From Dietzia psychralcaliphila (GTDB taxonomy: Bacteria > Actinomycetota > Actinomycetes > Mycobacteriales > Mycobacteriaceae): DNA of 64,000 nucleotides. The stretch is from positions 558,001 to 622,000 of the forward strand of contig NZ_CP015453.1 of the NCBI RefSeq assembly GCF_003096095.1. The letters are read 5' to 3'. Position 1 is the first letter of the stretch, and every line of letters begins with the position of its first letter. This document shows, in pieces, positions 46,075 through 53,859 of the stretch. A program made the position numbers and the translations under genes. The notes under the pieces were generated by a model. That model did not search any database. It was given only the letters and a program-made list of their open reading frames with translations, and was not told where the DNA came from.

Positions 46075-47411
46075 CAGGCGGGCCCCGGCTCGGGGCGGGC
46101 GCTCGCCGCGAGGCCCACGATGTGCACCACCACCCCGATGCCGGGTCCGGCGAGGAGGGCGATGGCCGAACGCACGTCGAGCGGGCCGGGGACCGACACC
46201 AGGAGGATCAGGGCGGCCAGCACCGCCACCCACCAGCCGACGTTGTAGAGCAGATGCCTGTCGAAGGCCAGTGCGGCGTTACCCGTCACCATCAGCGCGG
46301 CGGTACCCACGGAGGCCGCGGTGAGGGCGGCCAGGACCGCCCCGGGGAGCTCGAACTCGGCGCCGAACAGCACGCGGATGAGCCACGGGCCCACGAGCCA
46401 GGCCGCGCCGGCGCCCACCATGCCGACCGCGGTGACCAGGCCGAGGGGCCCGGCCAGGGCGCGTGGGCCGAGGTCGCGACGCTGGACGAAGTAGACGATG
46501 ATCGCGCTCTGGAAGCTGGTCAGCGGCACCAGCAGCGGGGCCCTGGTGAGGGTGATGGCCAGGATGACCGCGCCCACCAGGGGCGCGGGGTCCGACTCGC
46601 GGACGGTGGCGGTGACGAACACGGGGAAGCCCACCACGAGCACGGCCGTCCCCGCCGAGGCCAGCATCGCGGAGGCGGTGTTGCGCCAGAACCGTCGGCG
46701 CCCCACGTCGAGTGCACGGGCCAGGGCCTCGCGGGTGACCGGGGAGAGCGCGATCATCAGTGCCCAGGTGAACGCCCCGGCGACGGTGGCCAGCGCGAAC
46801 CCGAGTCCGGCGTCGCCGAACCACCACGCCACCCCCGCCACCACCAGCCGCAGTGCGGCATCCACGGTGAGCAGCACCGCGTACAGGCCCCAGCGCTCGG
46901 TGCCCGAGAGCGCGCCCGCGGTGGCGGCCTGCATGGAGAAGCCGAGGATCCCGAACGCCATCACCGCCACACCGATCCCGGAGAAGGTGGGCAGACCCAG
47001 GGCGGGCCAGACGGGGGCGCTCACCATCACGACGGCGGCCAACACCAGGCCCAGCACCAGCCCGGCGGGCAGGAGTCTGACCCGGCTGCCCGGGCCCGGT
47101 GCCGGGACGGGGGTCACGCGCCCGGCGGCGGTCATGCCCGCGGCGTCCGGCGTGGAACTCAGGCGCGCCGAGCGCACCGCCCGGGTGGCCTCCTGCATGA
47201 GCCCGTTGGCCACTCCGCCCAGCGCGAAGAACGCGCCCCAGTAGGTGGCGAAGAGCGGATAGTCCGCCGGGCCCAGCGCACGGCCGGCGACAAGCATCAC
47301 CAGGTAGCCGGAGGCGGCGGCGAACACCGTCGCCAGGGTCAGCGCCCGCATCCCACCCGCGGCGCGGTGGCCGGTCGTGGGCGTCGGATCAGCGGCGGCC
47401 GGCGTGGTCAT
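46074..47411 (-). CDS. Polysaccharide-export/flippase-like membrane protein (Rv3630-like)
   Basis: A 445-residue protein with about 12 membrane segments, e.g. LTLATVFAAASGYLVMLVAGRALGPADY and FATYWGAFFALGGVANGLMQEATRAVR, the pattern of Wzx/MATE-type polysaccharide transporters and of Rv3630. It probably flips or helps export a lipid-linked sugar used by the neighbouring glycosyltransferases. ATG 47411 lies within the end of the M1 peptidase gene (23-base overlap); the longer frame at 47558 would be a shadow of that gene. Confidence 0.72.
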   Translation of the reverse strand: MTTPAAADPTPTTGHRAAGGMRALTLATVFAAASGYLVMLVAGRALGPADYPLFATYWGAFFALGGVANGLMQEATRAVRSARLSSTPDAAGMTAAGRVTPVPAPGPGSRVRLLPAGLVLGLVLAAVVMVSAPVWPALGLPTFSGIGVAVMAFGILGFSMQAATAGALSGTERWGLYAVLLTVDAALRLVVAGVAWWFGDAGLGFALATVAGAFTWALMIALSPVTREALARALDVGRRRFWRNTASAMLASAGTAVLVVGFPVFVTATVRESDPAPLVGAVILAITLTRAPLLVPLTSFQSAIIVYFVQRRDLGPRALAGPLGLVTAVGMVGAGAAWLVGPWLIRVLFGAEFELPGAVLAALTAASVGTAALMVTGNAALAFDRHLLYNVGWWVAVLAALILLVSVPGPLDVRSAIALLAGPGIGVVVHIVGLAASARPEPGPA

Positions 47412-48783
47412 CGGGCATGCCGAGGGTGGACGGCAGCGGTTCCGAGAACAGCCACGCGGCCCACAGGGGCCGCAGGTCCACGGGGGAGTGGTCGGCAGCC
47501 ATGTGCAGGAAGTCGTCGGTGGTCGCGGTGCTGCCCGAGTACTTGGCCACCCAGTCACGCAGCAACTGGAAGAACTTCTCGTCGCCGATCGTCAGGCGCA
47601 GCGCGTGCAGGGTGAGCGCGCCGCGCTTGTAGACGCGGTCGTCGAACATGTCCTTGGGTCCGGGGTCGGCCAGGAGGAGGTTCTGCGGTGAGTTCTGCAG
47701 CTTGGAGTAGTAGCGCAGCGCGTGGCTGCCCGCGTCCGCGCCGCCGGAGAACTCGGTCCACAGCCACTCGGCGTAGCAGGCGAAGCCCTCGTGGAGCCAG
47801 ATGTGCTTCCATTCGGCGGCGGTGACGGCGTTGCCGAACCACTGGTGGGCGAGCTCGTGGGCGATCAGGCGTTCGTCGCCGGTCCCCGCCTCGGCGGTAT
47901 TGCGACCGAACGTGGACATCCCCATCGCCTCGAGGGGGATCTCCAGCTCGTCGTCGGTCACCACGACCTTGTAGTCCGGGAACGGGTACGGGCCGAACAG
48001 GTCGGTGAAGACGTCGATCATCTCGACCTGGCGGGCGAACGCGACGCGGAAGTCGCGCTTGAGGTCGGCGGGCAGGTAGGCCCGGAACGGCACCTTCCCG
48101 CCGGTCACCTCCAGGTGCTCGTACAGCCCCAGGTTGATGGTGACGAGGTAGGTGGAGGTGGGCTGCGGGAGGTCGAACTCCCACGTGGTCATGCTGCCGC
48201 TGCGCTTCTTGCCCACCAGTGAGCCCGTCACGACGGCGCGGTAGGGCGAGTCCGTGGTGAGCCGGATCCGGAACGGCGCCTTGGACGACGGGTGGTCGTC
48301 GCACGGGAACCAACTGGCGGCACCATTGGGCTGGTTGGCCACGAGGACGCCGTCGGTGAGCTCCTCCCACCCGACCTCGCCCCAGGCGCCGCGGATGGGC
48401 CGCGGGTTACCCGAGTACCGGATGGTGAGCGTGAACGCGGCGCCCACGGGGATCGGCTCGGCCGGGGTGACGGTGAGCTTGCCCCGCGGACGGGTGTACT
48501 TGGCCACCCGGCCGCGGTCCAGCGACACCTTGGCCACCTCGAGGTGGGGGGACATGTCGAGCTGGACGGACTCGAGCGGCTCGGTGGCGGTGGCGGTGAT
48601 CACGGCCCCGCCACGCAGGTTGTTGGAGCTCATCTTGTAGGTGAGGTCCAGTTCGTACCGGGTGACCCGGTAGCCGTGGTTACCGGCGCTGGGCAGGTAG
48701 GGGTCGACCGGATCGGCGCGCGACGAATCACGGGGAGCAGCGATCTTGGCGACGAGGTCCTTCTTGACTGCCTTCAAATCCAT
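47389..48783 (-). CDS. M1-family zinc metallopeptidase
   Basis: A 464-residue, short aminopeptidase-N-like enzyme. Zinc site HELAHQWFGN at H309-H313 with E332 in LHEGFACYAEWLW; the substrate-binding GAMEN motif is replaced by LEAMGMSTFG, as in some actinobacterial M1 proteins. Active-site tyrosine is probably in the DRVYKRGALTLHAL region. No signal peptide. ATG 48783 has only a weak ribosome binding site (GCAGG). It is the first gene of the M1-flippase-aftA operon. An N-terminal peptidase with lysine preference would be of interest given the nearby NRPS, but specificity cannot be read from sequence. Confidence 0.82.
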   Translation of the reverse strand: MDLKAVKKDLVAKIAAPRDSSRADPVDPYLPSAGNHGYRVTRYELDLTYKMSSNNLRGGAVITATATEPLESVQLDMSPHLEVAKVSLDRGRVAKYTRPRGKLTVTPAEPIPVGAAFTLTIRYSGNPRPIRGAWGEVGWEELTDGVLVANQPNGAASWFPCDDHPSSKAPFRIRLTTDSPYRAVVTGSLVGKKRSGSMTTWEFDLPQPTSTYLVTINLGLYEHLEVTGGKVPFRAYLPADLKRDFRVAFARQVEMIDVFTDLFGPYPFPDYKVVVTDDELEIPLEAMGMSTFGRNTAEAGTGDERLIAHELAHQWFGNAVTAAEWKHIWLHEGFACYAEWLWTEFSGGADAGSHALRYYSKLQNSPQNLLLADPGPKDMFDDRVYKRGALTLHALRLTIGDEKFFQLLRDWVAKYSGSTATTDDFLHMAADHSPVDLRPLWAAWLFSEPLPSTLGMPDDHAGRR

Positions 48784-48933
48784 GACCTGCGCGAGTGTAG
48801 TGGACCCGGGGGGATCGGCTGCGTCACCGGCCCGCCATCCGGGCACCGGCACCCCACCCAGGCACCGGCCCGGCCCGGGCACGGTAGCGGCAACGGCCCC
48901 GGCTCCGACCTGAGGCGAGAAGGCCACAATCGA

Positions 48934-48971
48934 GAAAGTACTTGCCAAACTGGAAAGTAGTTGCCTATGGT
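48934..48971 (+). promoter_or_regulatory. Promoter with duplicated operator for the membrane-protein/winged-helix operon
   Basis: GAAAGTACTTGCC (48934-48946) recurs as GAAAGTAGTTGCC (48953-48965), 19 bases apart. The first overlaps a -35-like TTGCCA (48942-48947) and the second fills the 18-base spacer before -10 TATGGT (48966-48971). A regulator binding both copies on nearly the same helix face would block the promoter; the winged-helix protein encoded in the operon is the obvious candidate. Confidence 0.6.
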
Positions 48972-49025
48972 CTAGTCATCGCTCGGGTGGAAACCCGCCG
49001 GAGTCGCCACGAGAAAGGTGTCGCC

Positions 49026-49475
49026 ATGACCACGGAGAACCCCACCACCGGCCCGCTCGATCGCACCGAGGCCGCCCGGCTCCTCGCCGAGGTCGAGGGG
49101 CGCCCGCCCGTCAGTTCCACCCGCGACGCCCGCGTCTTCGCCTGGTTCGCCGCGGTCATCGCGGTGGTGATGGGTGTCGGGACCATCGCGATCATGTTCA
49201 CCAACTGGGCGATGGTGCCGTACCTGGTGCTGCTGTTCGCCGTGATCTTCTGGCAGCGGCGATCGATCGGCGCCAGCCCCCGCGGATCGAGTCGGACGTA
49301 CCTCTGGGGGGTCGCGGGATCCGGCGCGATGGTCCTCGTCGTCGTCACCGGGTTGCACGTCATCCGCACCACGATCGGCCTCACCCCCTGGTGGTATCTC
49401 CTCGGCGCGGTGCTGGTGGCGGTGCCCGGACTGGTGGCCGCCGCGCGCATCGCGCGACGGGGCACGGCCCGATGA
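49026..49475 (+). CDS. Small integral membrane protein, 149 residues
   Basis: Four predicted membrane helices (VFAWFAAVIAVVMGVGTIAIM, MVPYLVLLFAVIFW, YLWGVAGSGAMVLVVVTGL, WWYLLGAVLVAVPGLVAAARI) after a soluble 40-residue N-terminus. The family is unknown to me; similar membrane proteins commonly precede a PF13601-type winged-helix regulator, as here. ATG 49026 follows GAAAGGTG. Its stop overlaps the regulator start by four bases. Confidence 0.7.
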   Translation: MTTENPTTGPLDRTEAARLLAEVEGRPPVSSTRDARVFAWFAAVIAVVMGVGTIAIMFTNWAMVPYLVLLFAVIFWQRRSIGASPRGSSRTYLWGVAGSGAMVLVVVTGLHVIRTTIGLTPWWYLLGAVLVAVPGLVAAARIARRGTAR

Positions 49476-49912
49476 GCGACGCGGTGGGCGGCGCCAAGGG
49501 AGACGATCCGACGACGACGAGCGCACCGGCCGAATCGGGGGGATCCTCCCCGGGCGTATCCGGAGGCTCCGACCCGGGCGAGCCGGGGGGTTCCGCTCCG
49601 CGCTCCGACAGTCAGCCGGAGGGGCACGCCCGGCACCGGCTCGACGAGGTGATCCACGCCCCGGTGCGCTTCTCCATAGTCGCGGCGCTGGCAGGGGTGG
49701 ACGACGCGGAGTTCGCCACGATCCGTGATGCGGTCGAGGTGTCCGACTCCGCGCTGTCCAAGCAGGTCGCGGTGCTCGAGAAGGCCGGGTACGTCAAGGT
49801 GCGCAAGGGCTATGTGGGCAAGCGGCCCCGGACGTGGCTCTCCCTCAGCCGCGAGGGTCGCAGGGCCTACGGGTCGCACCTGGAGGCGCTGCGCGCGATC
49901 GCCGGCGGCTGA
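49472..49912 (+). CDS. Winged-helix (HTH_34/MarR-like) transcriptional regulator
   Basis: A 146-residue protein with a disordered Gly/Ser/Pro-rich N-terminus (about 1-50) and a winged helix: LDEVIHAPVRFSIVAALAGV, ATIRDAVEVSDSALSKQVAVLEKAGYVKVRKGYVGKRPRTWLSL split over residues 80-125, and REGRRAYGSHLEALRAI. ATGA overlap with the membrane protein. It probably represses its own operon through the duplicated site at 48934-48965. Confidence 0.83.
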   Translation: MSDAVGGAKGDDPTTTSAPAESGGSSPGVSGGSDPGEPGGSAPRSDSQPEGHARHRLDEVIHAPVRFSIVAALAGVDDAEFATIRDAVEVSDSALSKQVAVLEKAGYVKVRKGYVGKRPRTWLSLSREGRRAYGSHLEALRAIAGG

Positions 49913-50007: not shown

Positions 50008-53000
50008 TCAGCCGCGCCAGGGGGCGATCGGGTTGCCCTGCCAGCGGGTGCCCGGGGGGATGCGGTCGCCGCGCATGACCAGCGAGGCCGGGCCCACGGT
50101 GGAGCCGTCGCCGATCGAGGACGCCGGGAGGGTCACGCAGTGGCAGCCCAGGGTGGCGCCGTCGGCCAGGTCCACCCGGTCGATCTGCATGATGCGGTCG
50201 TGGAACAGGTGGGTCTGGACCACGCAGCCGCGGTTGACGGTGACGCCGTCGCCCAGCGAGATCAGGTCGGCCTCGGGCAGCCAGTACGACTCACACCACA
50301 CTCCGCGGCCGATGCGCGACCCGAGCAGCCGCAACATCACGTTGAGGATCGGGGTGCCCGTGGCGGGGCGGGCCACCCAGGGCGCGGCGAGGAGTTCGAC
50401 GAACGAGTCGGCGACCTCGTTCCTCCACACGAAGGAGGACCACAGCGGTTGCTCTCCCACCCGGATCCTGCCCACGAACAGCCACTTGGCCAGCACGGAG
50501 ACGAAAAGTGCCACGAGGCCCGCGTAGGCGAGGGTGATCCCTGAGGTCAGCGCCGCGACGCCGAAGCCCCACTCCTGATGGATCTCCTGCATCACCACCA
50601 GCACGCTGACCAGCAGCAGGAACGAGAGCCACACGGGGACCAGGCGCAGCGTCTCCCACGCGCCCCGGGCGATCTTGAGGCGCCGGGGCGGCTGGTAGGT
50701 ACGCGCGTCGCTGTCGCCGTCGGTCACGGCCCGGGGCAGCTTCTGCGGCGGTGAACCGAGCCACGAGGTGCCCTTCTTGGCCTTCTGCGGTGCGGAGGAC
50801 AACACTGCGACCAGCCCACGCGCGGGGACCTTGCGACCGGCGGACGCGATGCCTGAGTTACCCAGGAACGCGCGTTTTCCGATCTGCGCCTGTTCCAACC
50901 GCATCCATCCCGATCCCAGCTCGTACGGCGCCACCATCGTGTCGTCGGCGAGGAACGCCCCGTCACGGACGGTGGTGAGCGAGGGGATCAGCAGGACGGT
51001 CGAGGCCTCCACGTCCTTACCGATCCTCGCGCCCAGCGCCCGCAGCCACATCGGGGTCAGCATCGAGGCGTAGAGGGGGTACAGCCAGTTCCGGGAGGCG
51101 TCCATGATGCGCTCGCTGCACCAGGCCTGCCATGCGATGCGGGAGTGGACCGGGTGGAACCCTTCCCGGAGGCCGACCGAGAGCAACCGGACCGACACCA
51201 GGGTGAGCGCGGCGAACAGTGCGAGTGCGACCAACGTCCCGGGGACGGACCACAGGGCGGCGCGGAGCAACAGCTGGCCGGGGGTCGCGGCGTCCCGCGC
51301 ACCCCAGACCACCAACGCGAGTCCGGCGGCCACGGCGAGTAGCGGCATCGCGCCGAGCGCCACCGCGGAGAGCTGGTAGACCAGGCTCCACACGCGGTTG
51401 TGGGGTGCGGGCTCGGCCGGCCAACTGGACCCGCGTTTGCCCCGCTTGAGAGCCGGTGAGCCGGCATACCGTTTCCCGGCCTTGACGGTGCCCACCACGG
51501 CGGATCCGATCTCCACGTGCGCGCCCCGGCCCACCACCGCGCCGGGCAGCAGCGTGGACCGGGCTCCCACCACGGCGTTCTCGCCGATCTCCACGGCCCC
51601 GATGTGCAGGACGTCGCCGTCGAGCCAGTGGCCTGCCAGGTCCACCTCCGGTTCGATCGAGGCGCCGTCGCCCACGGTCAGCAGTCCGGTGACGGGTGGC
51701 ATGGTGTGCATGTCCACGCCGTGGCCGATCTGCGCGCCGAGCATGCGGGCGAACGGGGTGAGCCAGCCGGCGCCCTCCAGGTTGGCGACGCCGGAGACCT
51801 CGACCAGCCGTTCGGCCGCCCAGAGGCGGAGGTGGACCGAACCCGCCCTCGGATAGGCACCCGGCGTGACCCCGGCCATGAGGGCCCGGCACAGCAGACC
51901 CGTCACCACCATGCGGCCCGCGGGCAACAGCAGCAGCACCGCGAGGACCCCGAGCACCCACCACGAGACCGGGCGCGCCCAGGGGATGCCCACGGCGGCG
52001 GCGACGTTGTTGGCGATCCCGAGCCAGGTCAGCCATTGCAGTCCGGTGATCGTGAGCAGCGGGAGGGTGGCCAGGACCTGCACGACCTGGGCGCCGCGGC
52101 CGACGGGTCGCACGTGTCGCGGTTCCACGGCGGCCACCGGTTCCAACTCGTCGAGGTACCCGGCGAAGTCGCCCAGGCGCGGGCGGTCGTAGATGTCTCC
52201 CACCGTGACGCCGGGAAAACGCTCCCGGACCGCCACCACCACGTGGGCCGCGGCGAGCGAACCGCCGCCGAGGGCGAAGAAGTCCTCGTCCACCCCGGAG
52301 ACGTCGGCCCCGAGGGCCGAGGACCACAGTTCGGCCACCCACGCATCGGTGCCGTCCAGTTCGGTCTCCGCGGCCGAGGTCTGCGCCAGGGGCCACGGCA
52401 GGGCGGCGCGGTCGACCTTCCCCGACGTGCGGGTGGGCAGCTCGTCGACCAGGGTCAGCCGGGGGACCACCCCTGCCGGCAGGCGGTCCCGCAGGATCCC
52501 GGCGGCGTCGGCGAGGTCGAAGTGCTCGGGGTCGTCGGCCACGAGGTAGGCGACGAGTACGGACTGACCGGCATCGGTCTTCTTGACCGCGGCGGCTCCG
52601 GCGCTCACGCCCGGCAGGGCGGACACGGCGGTGTCGACCTCGCCCAGCTCGAGCCGGCGACCACCGATCTTGACCTGGTCGTCCACGCGCCCGGTGAAGT
52701 ACAGGCCGTCGGCCTCGAGGCGCACGACGTCACCGGACCGGTAGGCACGCTCCCACCCGAGGCTGTCCATGGGCGCGTACTTCTCGGCGTCCTTGTCCGG
52801 GTCGAGGTATCGGGCCAGTCCCACGCCGCCGATCACCAGCTCGCCGGACTCGCCGTAGCCGACCGGCAGGCCGGTGGCGTCGACCACGGCCAGGTCCCAC
52901 CCGTCCAGCGGCAGGCCGATCGAGACCTCACCGCTGCCGTCCAGCTGCGCGGCGCACGCCACCACGGTGGCCTCGGTGGGACCGTAGGTGTTCCAGACCT

Positions 53001-53859
53001 CCCGGCCGTCACCGGCGAGTCGCGCGGCGAGCTCGGGCGGGCAGGCCTCGCCGCCGAGGATCACCAGGCGGATGTCGGCGAGCATCTCCTCCGGCCATAT
53101 CGAGGCCAGGGTCGGCACGGTGGAGATCACCGTGATCCCGCGCTCGCGCAGCCACGGACCCAGGTCGAGCCCGGATTTGACGATCGACCGGGGTGCGGGC
53201 ACCAGGCACGCCCCGTGCGCCCAGGCCAGCCACATCTCCTCGCAGGAGGCGTCGAACGCCACGGACAACCCGGCCAGCACCCGGTCGCCCGGGCCGAGTG
53301 GGGCGTCGGACAGGAAGATCCGCGACTCGGCGTCCACGAACGCGGCCGCGCTGCGATGGGTCACCGCCACTCCCTTGGGCAGGCCGGTGGTGCCGGAGGT
53401 GAAGATGATCCAGCAGTCGTCGTCGACGGTGGGGCCCCGGTGTCGCGACGGGTCGACCGGACGCCCGGGGTCGGTGACCCGCATCCCCTGGGCGGTGTAG
53501 ACGGCCGCCACCTTTGCCTGCCCGAACACCAACTCGGCGCGTTCGGCCGGATCGTCGACGTCCACGGGGACGTACGCGGCACCGGCGGCCAGGGTCGACA
53601 GGATCGCCAGGTACAGCTCGACCCCACCCGAGGGCATGTGGATGCCCACGCGGTCTCCCGCCCCGACCCCCTGGCTCTGCATCCAGCGCGCGGAGGTGTG
53701 GATCTCCTCCCACACCTCGCGGTAGCTCAGGACGCGCGAACCGTCGTCCAGGCAGGGAGCGTCAGGGTGACCCTGGGCGGCGGAGCCCAGAATGTCCAGC
53801 AGCGACCGGGGGTCCGGGGCCTGTGAGCTGCGAAGATACTGCTCAGGGATGGTGTGCAC
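50008..53859 (-). CDS. Pls/PosA-type non-ribosomal peptide synthetase, predicted lysine-activating
   Basis: A 1283-residue single-module membrane NRPS without a classical condensation domain. The adenylation domain spans about 1-490: FTSGTTGLPKG (153-163), FDAS (202-205), NTYGPTEATV (290-299), TSGK (478-481). The thiolation domain is about 500-575 with phosphopantetheine Ser534 in LGGGSL. Six membrane segments separate three C-terminal tandem domains with hexapeptide (left-handed beta-helix) character such as VGARSTLLPGAVVGRGAHVEIGS. This is the layout and size of epsilon-poly-L-lysine synthetase. Aligned by eye to GrsA, the specificity residues are D203 A204 E207 S246 I267 G269 T291 V299 V300 K481, close to the lysine code DAESIGSVAK recalled for BacB. 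The gene is divergent from the SDR. Confidence 0.85.
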   Translation of the reverse strand: MHTIPEQYLRSSQAPDPRSLLDILGSAAQGHPDAPCLDDGSRVLSYREVWEEIHTSARWMQSQGVGAGDRVGIHMPSGGVELYLAILSTLAAGAAYVPVDVDDPAERAELVFGQAKVAAVYTAQGMRVTDPGRPVDPSRHRGPTVDDDCWIIFTSGTTGLPKGVAVTHRSAAAFVDAESRIFLSDAPLGPGDRVLAGLSVAFDASCEEMWLAWAHGACLVPAPRSIVKSGLDLGPWLRERGITVISTVPTLASIWPEEMLADIRLVILGGEACPPELAARLAGDGREVWNTYGPTEATVVACAAQLDGSGEVSIGLPLDGWDLAVVDATGLPVGYGESGELVIGGVGLARYLDPDKDAEKYAPMDSLGWERAYRSGDVVRLEADGLYFTGRVDDQVKIGGRRLELGEVDTAVSALPGVSAGAAAVKKTDAGQSVLVAYLVADDPEHFDLADAAGILRDRLPAGVVPRLTLVDELPTRTSGKVDRAALPWPLAQTSAAETELDGTDAWVAELWSSALGADVSGVDEDFFALGGGSLAAAHVVVAVRERFPGVTVGDIYDRPRLGDFAGYLDELEPVAAVEPRHVRPVGRGAQVVQVLATLPLLTITGLQWLTWLGIANNVAAAVGIPWARPVSWWVLGVLAVLLLLPAGRMVVTGLLCRALMAGVTPGAYPRAGSVHLRLWAAERLVEVSGVANLEGAGWLTPFARMLGAQIGHGVDMHTMPPVTGLLTVGDGASIEPEVDLAGHWLDGDVLHIGAVEIGENAVVGARSTLLPGAVVGRGAHVEIGSAVVGTVKAGKRYAGSPALKRGKRGSSWPAEPAPHNRVWSLVYQLSAVALGAMPLLAVAAGLALVVWGARDAATPGQLLLRAALWSVPGTLVALALFAALTLVSVRLLSVGLREGFHPVHSRIAWQAWCSERIMDASRNWLYPLYASMLTPMWLRALGARIGKDVEASTVLLIPSLTTVRDGAFLADDTMVAPYELGSGWMRLEQAQIGKRAFLGNSGIASAGRKVPARGLVAVLSSAPQKAKKGTSWLGSPPQKLPRAVTDGDSDARTYQPPRRLKIARGAWETLRLVPVWLSFLLLVSVLVVMQEIHQEWGFGVAALTSGITLAYAGLVALFVSVLAKWLFVGRIRVGEQPLWSSFVWRNEVADSFVELLAAPWVARPATGTPILNVMLRLLGSRIGRGVWCESYWLPEADLISLGDGVTVNRGCVVQTHLFHDRIMQIDRVDLADGATLGCHCVTLPASSIGDGSTVGPASLVMRGDRIPPGTRWQGNPIAPWRG

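Follow-up and report, generated by a model that had tools for sequence, protein, structure and literature searches.

The systems closest to the gene considered here are the actinobacterial synthetases of the antimicrobial polymer epsilon-poly-L-lysine (epsilon-PL), termed Pls, and the peptidases encoded beside them. In Streptomyces albulus, pls is adjoined by, and translationally coupled to, the gene for PldII, a metallopeptidase located outside the membrane that is reported to be the major epsilon-PL-degrading enzyme (PMC9223678). Pls homologues with identical or highly similar specificity codes, sharing a peptidase gene, have been described in Corynebacterium, Brevibacterium, Arthrobacter, Rhodococcus and others, and the Corynebacterium variabile protein, which is 51 % identical to Streptomyces Pls and adjoins a peptidase gene, yields epsilon-PL when expressed in S. 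coelicolor (PMC8117764). Nocardia farcinica, from a genus related to Dietzia, harbours nfa3790, known from annotation as a Pls homologue with 55 % identity to the S. albulus enzyme (PMC4035055). The TIGR02353-type family also includes PosA, the delta-poly-L-ornithine synthetase of Acinetobacter baumannii (PMC10522769). The gene examined herein occupies positions 50008–53859 (minus strand) of a 64,000 nt stretch of Dietzia psychralcaliphila DNA (contig NZ_CP015453.1, positions 558,001–622,000), referred to as the window. As judged by sequence comparison, it appears, with a probability of roughly 0.87, to be the pls of this organism, encoding an epsilon-PL synthetase, with a PldII-type peptidase partner encoded downstream.

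Open reading frame analysis of the window reveals an uninterrupted frame of 1283 aa with a GTG start, residing in a genome of 3.9 Mb on two contigs. The adenylation (A) domain spans residues 5–492 (52384–53847; phmmer to 7WEW_A, E-value 2.1e-187), with the Pfam AMP-binding match covering residues 27–350, and is followed by a carrier, or thiolation (T), domain at residues 507–569 (52153–52341; PF00550, 40.3 bits), the carrier serine of which is Ser534, as located by the motif FFALGGGSL. Residues 592–1278 (50026–52086), constituting the predicted membrane polymerisation region with its C1, C2 and C3 portions, match the profile TIGR02353 ('Pls/PosA family non-ribosomal peptide synthetase') over its entire length (positions 1–695 of 695), scoring 732.7 bits against a cut-off of 423.1. 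This succession of A and T domains and a Pls/PosA terminal region is the architecture of epsilon-PL synthetase. A hexapeptide repeat lies within the latter region at residues 756–782, and is recovered as one stretch by Pfam and as two at a looser cut-off; for PosA, the C-terminal region has been modelled as six helices bearing three left-handed beta-helices (PMC10522769). Neither a condensation nor a thioesterase domain is listed by Pfam at E ≤ 10, a setting at which the HMMER filters drop most matches above approximately 0.1. Hydropathy, assessed by a simple Kyte–Doolittle scan (19-residue mean above 1.5) rather than a trained predictor, returns 12 partly overlapping segments before merging, and the merged segments of the C-terminal half number six, at residues 592–610 (weak, 1.56), 627–661, 823–858, 863–898, 1068–1095 and 1098–1134, in keeping with six transmembrane (TM) segments of which the first is weak; two further weak segments fall within the soluble half (79–97 and 526–545). 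The layout proposed in a first-pass annotation of the window, comprising A and T domains, six TM segments, a C-terminal region and an intact Ser534, with no condensation domain found, is thus upheld by TIGR02353, Pfam and hydropathy alike.

The ten residues of the specificity code were extracted by alignment with 7WEW, a protein that carries the name 'Epsilon-poly-L-lysine synthase' in the Protein Data Bank list and that presumably originates from S. albulus. In Dietzia Pls these are D203, A204, E207, S246, I267, G269, T291, V299, V300 and K481, and the resulting code, DAESIGTVVK, is identical to that of 7WEW at all ten positions, confirming the code previously read by eye, Glu207 included. 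The A domains of the two proteins share 62 % identity; over its full length, Dietzia Pls is 52.6 % identical to a Pls that shares 93 % A-domain identity with 7WEW, with values of about 52–54 % for the 7WEW-like proteins more generally. A lysine substrate had already been proposed, by reference to the BacB lysine code, which that annotation presumed to be DAESIGSVAK; the lysine call stands, as the code is that of an epsilon-PL synthase, but BacB cedes its place as the closest comparison to 7WEW, which is nearer.

The breadth of this identity was assessed in an alignment of 104 rows, comprising Dietzia Pls, 7WEW, 79 loci from a set of 80 and 23 further proteins. These 80 loci scored highest amongst at least 589 relatives, and so represent a sample of near neighbours rather than a random one; L063 was omitted from the alignment because its frame runs off the contig. 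DAESIGTVVK is present in 98 rows (Dietzia Pls and 7WEW amongst them), including every one of the 79 loci scored, with a single row displaying DAESVGTVVK and five outgroup paralogues bearing codes that begin DFE. One Pls-family protein (L093/L156, genome G098) displays the unusual code DFECLSVVTK at the end of a branch of 2.85 changes per column, and possibly acts on another substrate.

An alternative to be weighed against this background is that the enzyme is of the Pls type but acts on ornithine, diaminobutyrate (Dab), diaminopropionate (Dap) or beta-lysine, giving rise to a different cationic polymer. Family and layout would be shared in such a case, and members of the PosA family do vary in substrate (PMC10522769). 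The same work ties Glu at code position 3 to the side-chain amine, and takes the residue at position 2 to indicate the substrate, with Ala pointing to lysine, Met to ornithine and Phe to Dap or Dab; Dietzia Pls has Ala204 at the latter position, rather than Phe. Of the published codes, neither DMEHNGTVSK (PosA, ornithine) nor DGESISVVNK (poly-beta-lysine) is that of Dietzia Pls (PMC10522769). PosA, the reported pocket residues of which are Asp217, Met218, Glu221, His260, Asn280, Thr304, Val312 and Ser313, agrees with Dietzia Pls at code positions 1, 3, 6, 7, 8 and 10, and differs at positions 2, 4, 5 and 9, where Met, His, Asn and Ser stand against Ala, Ser, Ile and Val, respectively; the numbering of the two proteins is offset by 14 through position 4 and by 13 thereafter. 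With the code equal to that of 7WEW throughout, and with the five DFE-type paralogues forming a separate group (support 100, approximately 29–33 % identity), this alternative appears very improbable, and a non-lysine substrate was rejected on the code.

The synthetase had been described in the first-pass annotation as an orphan with no adjacent release or modification enzyme, a view that cannot be retained because a peptidase gene lies next door. The open frame at 47389–48948, on the same (minus) strand as pls and 1.06 kb downstream of it, with a two-gene cassette between, encodes a PldII-type M1 metallopeptidase (PF01433, 104.6 bits; PF17900, 51.3 bits) that contains HELAH-X18-E, a match to HExxH-X18-E, at frame residue 364. 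Inspection of the frame indicates that an ATG at about 48783 is the likelier start. Over 435 aa, the protein is 40 % identical to the peptidase that follows a pls gene encoding an A domain with 93 % identity to 7WEW, and in five genomes where the A domain of Pls is 85–93 % identical to 7WEW, the gene following pls is homologous to it (38–42 % over 432–488 aa). That the gene following such 7WEW-like pls genes is itself pldII is inferred from its position, together with the published descriptions (PMC9223678, PMC8117764). The M1 domain, the HExxH-X18-E motif and this homology together place the Dietzia peptidase as PldII-type. The locus resembles 7WEW Pls and PldII in layout, in code and in the presence of a peptidase gene downstream on the same strand, but differs in that the peptidase gene of the 7WEW-like loci read comes immediately after pls, whilst in Dietzia a two-gene cassette on the opposite strand intervenes.

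Beyond Dietzia psychralcaliphila, an M1 peptidase adjoins pls, as judged by tblastn, in 78 of the 80 best loci, and in the remaining two (L001 and L063) the contig ends within approximately 210 bases of pls; the pairing of synthetase and peptidase is therefore a regular feature of this clade. As a control, 12–16 kb was inspected at each of eight loci from the DFE-type group, and none contains a close PldII relative. Four of these loci, however (L152, L153, L154 and L159, probably specific for Dap or Dab), possess a distant M1-family stretch (24–30 % identity) some 4–5 kb from the synthetase, so that the occurrence of an M1 gene at some distance is not peculiar to pls. A separate observation concerns genome G987, a presumed Streptomyces, which harbours two pls genes from two clades (L123 and L124, the A domains of which share 85 and 68 % identity with 7WEW, respectively), each with an M1 peptidase of its own, the second displaying the code DAESVGTVVK.

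The phylogeny of Dietzia Pls was assessed in a quick tree of 103 rows. Due to the 20 open forks amongst its 100 inner branches, and to several long branches, no deep branching order is claimed. Dietzia Pls and four other Dietzia proteins form a group of five rows with a support of 100, situated in a Mycobacteriales cluster that includes one long-branched row from another order (L132), and far from the five DFE-type paralogues. The proteins of Dietzia, Nocardia and Tsukamurella each group together, as do those of Mycobacterium with its sister genera and three further rows. Amongst the matches listed, the nearest named relatives of Dietzia Pls are those of D. cercidiphylli (95 % identity) and D. 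natronolimnaea (93 %). The D. psychralcaliphila genome contains one stretch exceeding the TIGR02353 cut-off, and other matches to the Pls A domain within it show 26–49 % identity over parts only. Of 23 Dietzia genomes, 18 possess a match above the cut-off of the profile (13 out of the 15 with a completeness of 90 % or more); for the order the figure is 128 out of 298, and 47 of 54 sampled genomes of the same family, G000 aside, have a strong match. Across the phylum, such matches are rarer, with the 7WEW A domain matching 14 of 296 genomes at 1e-120, D. psychralcaliphila included; in the genus around G475, presumed to be Streptomyces from its identity to 7WEW, 166 of 392 genomes match at 1e-150.

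Taken together, the whole-length TIGR02353 match, the identical code, the A-domain identity to 7WEW, the recurrent peptidase, the position in the tree and the comparison with C. variabile support the assignment of this gene as a Dietzia pls encoding an epsilon-PL synthetase. By analogy with characterised relatives, the A domain would activate L-lysine with ATP, the lysine would be loaded onto the phosphopantetheine arm at Ser534, and the membrane-embedded C1–C3 region would link lysines through epsilon-amide bonds, giving a chain a few tens of residues long, which would then leave the cell. The M1 peptidase may trim or degrade this polymer, limiting self-harm. Such a product was previously considered undescribed, a claim that is not supported, given that other actinobacteria are reported to possess homologues of Pls in which the code is identical or very similar (PMC8117764, PMC10522769, PMC4035055). 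Dietzia itself is unmentioned in the main text of PMC8117764, and no paper on this gene was found in the open-access literature, as judged from titles and the openings of abstracts.

Several points weigh against this assignment. In the tree, Dietzia Pls falls within a larger clade and not within the seven-row clade of 7WEW-like Streptomyces proteins, outside of which the only experimental support encountered is the work on C. variabile, the sequence of which is absent from the tree. The likeness to that protein, which is from another genus, lies in an actinobacterial pls accompanied by a peptidase gene and is drawn from the description in the paper, wherein the native C. variabile strain yields no detectable epsilon-PL, nor does C. 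glutamicum carrying its gene (PMC8117764). In Dietzia, moreover, the cassette separates pls from the peptidase gene.

With respect to the integrity of the gene, Dietzia Pls retains the conserved residue at every one of the 222 alignment columns in which conservation reaches at least 97 % across 102 homologues, and the ratios of non-synonymous to synonymous substitution rates (dN/dS) against four Dietzia relatives are 0.10 (L001), 0.11 (L002), 0.175 (L003) and 0.14 (L004). The frame is thus not a product of chance, and is under purifying selection. That pls is nonetheless a silent or decayed relic, retained without any polymer being made, seems very improbable, for whilst the native C. variabile strain showed no detectable Pls protein under the conditions employed (PMC8117764), and five of the 23 Dietzia genomes, two of them 95 and 99 % complete, lack a match over cut-off, the conserved columns and low dN/dS values argue against decay, albeit saying nothing about silence.

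The cassette between pls and the peptidase gene consists of two genes on the plus strand. The first (48942–49475) encodes a small hydrophobic protein of unassigned family, with no Pfam or NCBIfam match at E ≤ 0.001, a homologue of which lies between pls and the peptidase in seven of 16 Dietzia loci. The second (49391–49912) encodes a winged-helix regulator (HTH_34; PF13601, 92.2 bits) that adjoins pls in nine of 22 other Dietzia genomes, and stands between pls and the peptidase where both are visible. At the level of the 16 other Dietzia loci, the regulator is found by pls in eight (the contig ending there in L137) and is absent from eight, with G008 being the ninth genome to possess it. In seven of the loci missing the regulator, no more than approximately 130 bases separate the end of the pls match from the start of the peptidase, and in L151 (genome G013) the distance is about 0.3 kb. 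L151, in which the match to pls falls short at the C-terminal end (1064 residues matched; TIGR02353 positions 2–668), possibly holds a damaged or misassembled copy. Weaker relatives of the regulator (38–56 % identity) occur elsewhere in many Dietzia genomes. As the cassette genes were found in none of 76 loci outside Dietzia, the cassette looks like an insertion within the genus. Because it separates the pair, translational coupling of the S. albulus type (PMC9223678) cannot hold in Dietzia.

With regard to the surrounding chromosome, the genes upstream of pls comprise a short-chain dehydrogenase/reductase, an enoyl-CoA hydratase-like gene, ppa, a D-Ala-D-Ala carboxypeptidase, tilS and a phosphoribosyltransferase, whilst those downstream encode a membrane protein without a Pfam match, AftA, a family 2 glycosyltransferase (GT2) with a DUF2304 protein, and an epimerase. 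The block from the phosphoribosyltransferase, tilS, carboxypeptidase and ppa, through pls and the peptidase, to the membrane protein, AftA, GT2, DUF2304 protein and epimerase extends over 33425–59889. Within the flanks of the best 80 loci, ppa is present in 25, the membrane protein in 23, and the GT2 and DUF2304 genes in 16 each; AftA was found in three Dietzia loci only. Markers on both sides (at least one of ppa, dacB, tilS or hpt, together with the membrane protein) are retained by 14 of the 80, namely three Dietzia, nine Mycobacterium or Mycolicibacterium and two uncultured loci, and so in these pls may sit at an ancestral chromosomal place. The other 66 do not display the two-sided arrangement, some on account of short flanks. 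Horizontal acquisition of pls is not favoured, given that the genera group together in the tree and that these loci keep their flanking markers. From its domains and gene order rather than from an alignment, the Dietzia GT2 and DUF2304 pair appears to be the counterpart of Rv3631 and Rv3632 of Mycobacterium tuberculosis, for which the order Rv3628–Rv3635 is in part presumed here. In that organism, the galactosamine of arabinogalactan has been tied to Rv3631 and Rv3632, and the epimerisation of UDP-GalNAc to Rv3634c (PMC5389812, PMC6487176).

A functional tie between these envelope-glycan neighbours and the polymer is possible; however, the block looks like ancestral synteny as a whole, and so the neighbourhood alone says little about function. 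A doubtful, broader proposal is that pls and pldII form an ancestral, vertically inherited module of mycolic-acid bacteria, occupying one chromosomal place in Dietzia and some mycobacteria, between ppa/dacB and galactosamine-type envelope-glycan genes. Epsilon-PL would in that event serve as an envelope component or charge modulator rather than, or besides, acting as a secreted antibiotic, and the amino sugar would protect the cell from it. Against this proposal, 57 of the 80 loci lack such a membrane protein and 64 lack such a GT2 within the flank, some flanks being short. Nothing on the role of epsilon-PL in mycolic-acid bacteria was found in the open-access literature, as judged mostly from search listings.

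Returning to the assignment as an epsilon-PL synthetase with a PldII-type partner, the predicted product is most likely of a known type, and the gene belongs to a widespread family rather than to a new kind of system. Dietzia is thereby added to the genera possessing a complete pls–pldII pair. The more useful point is that this pair is common, and probably old, amongst mycolic-acid bacteria.

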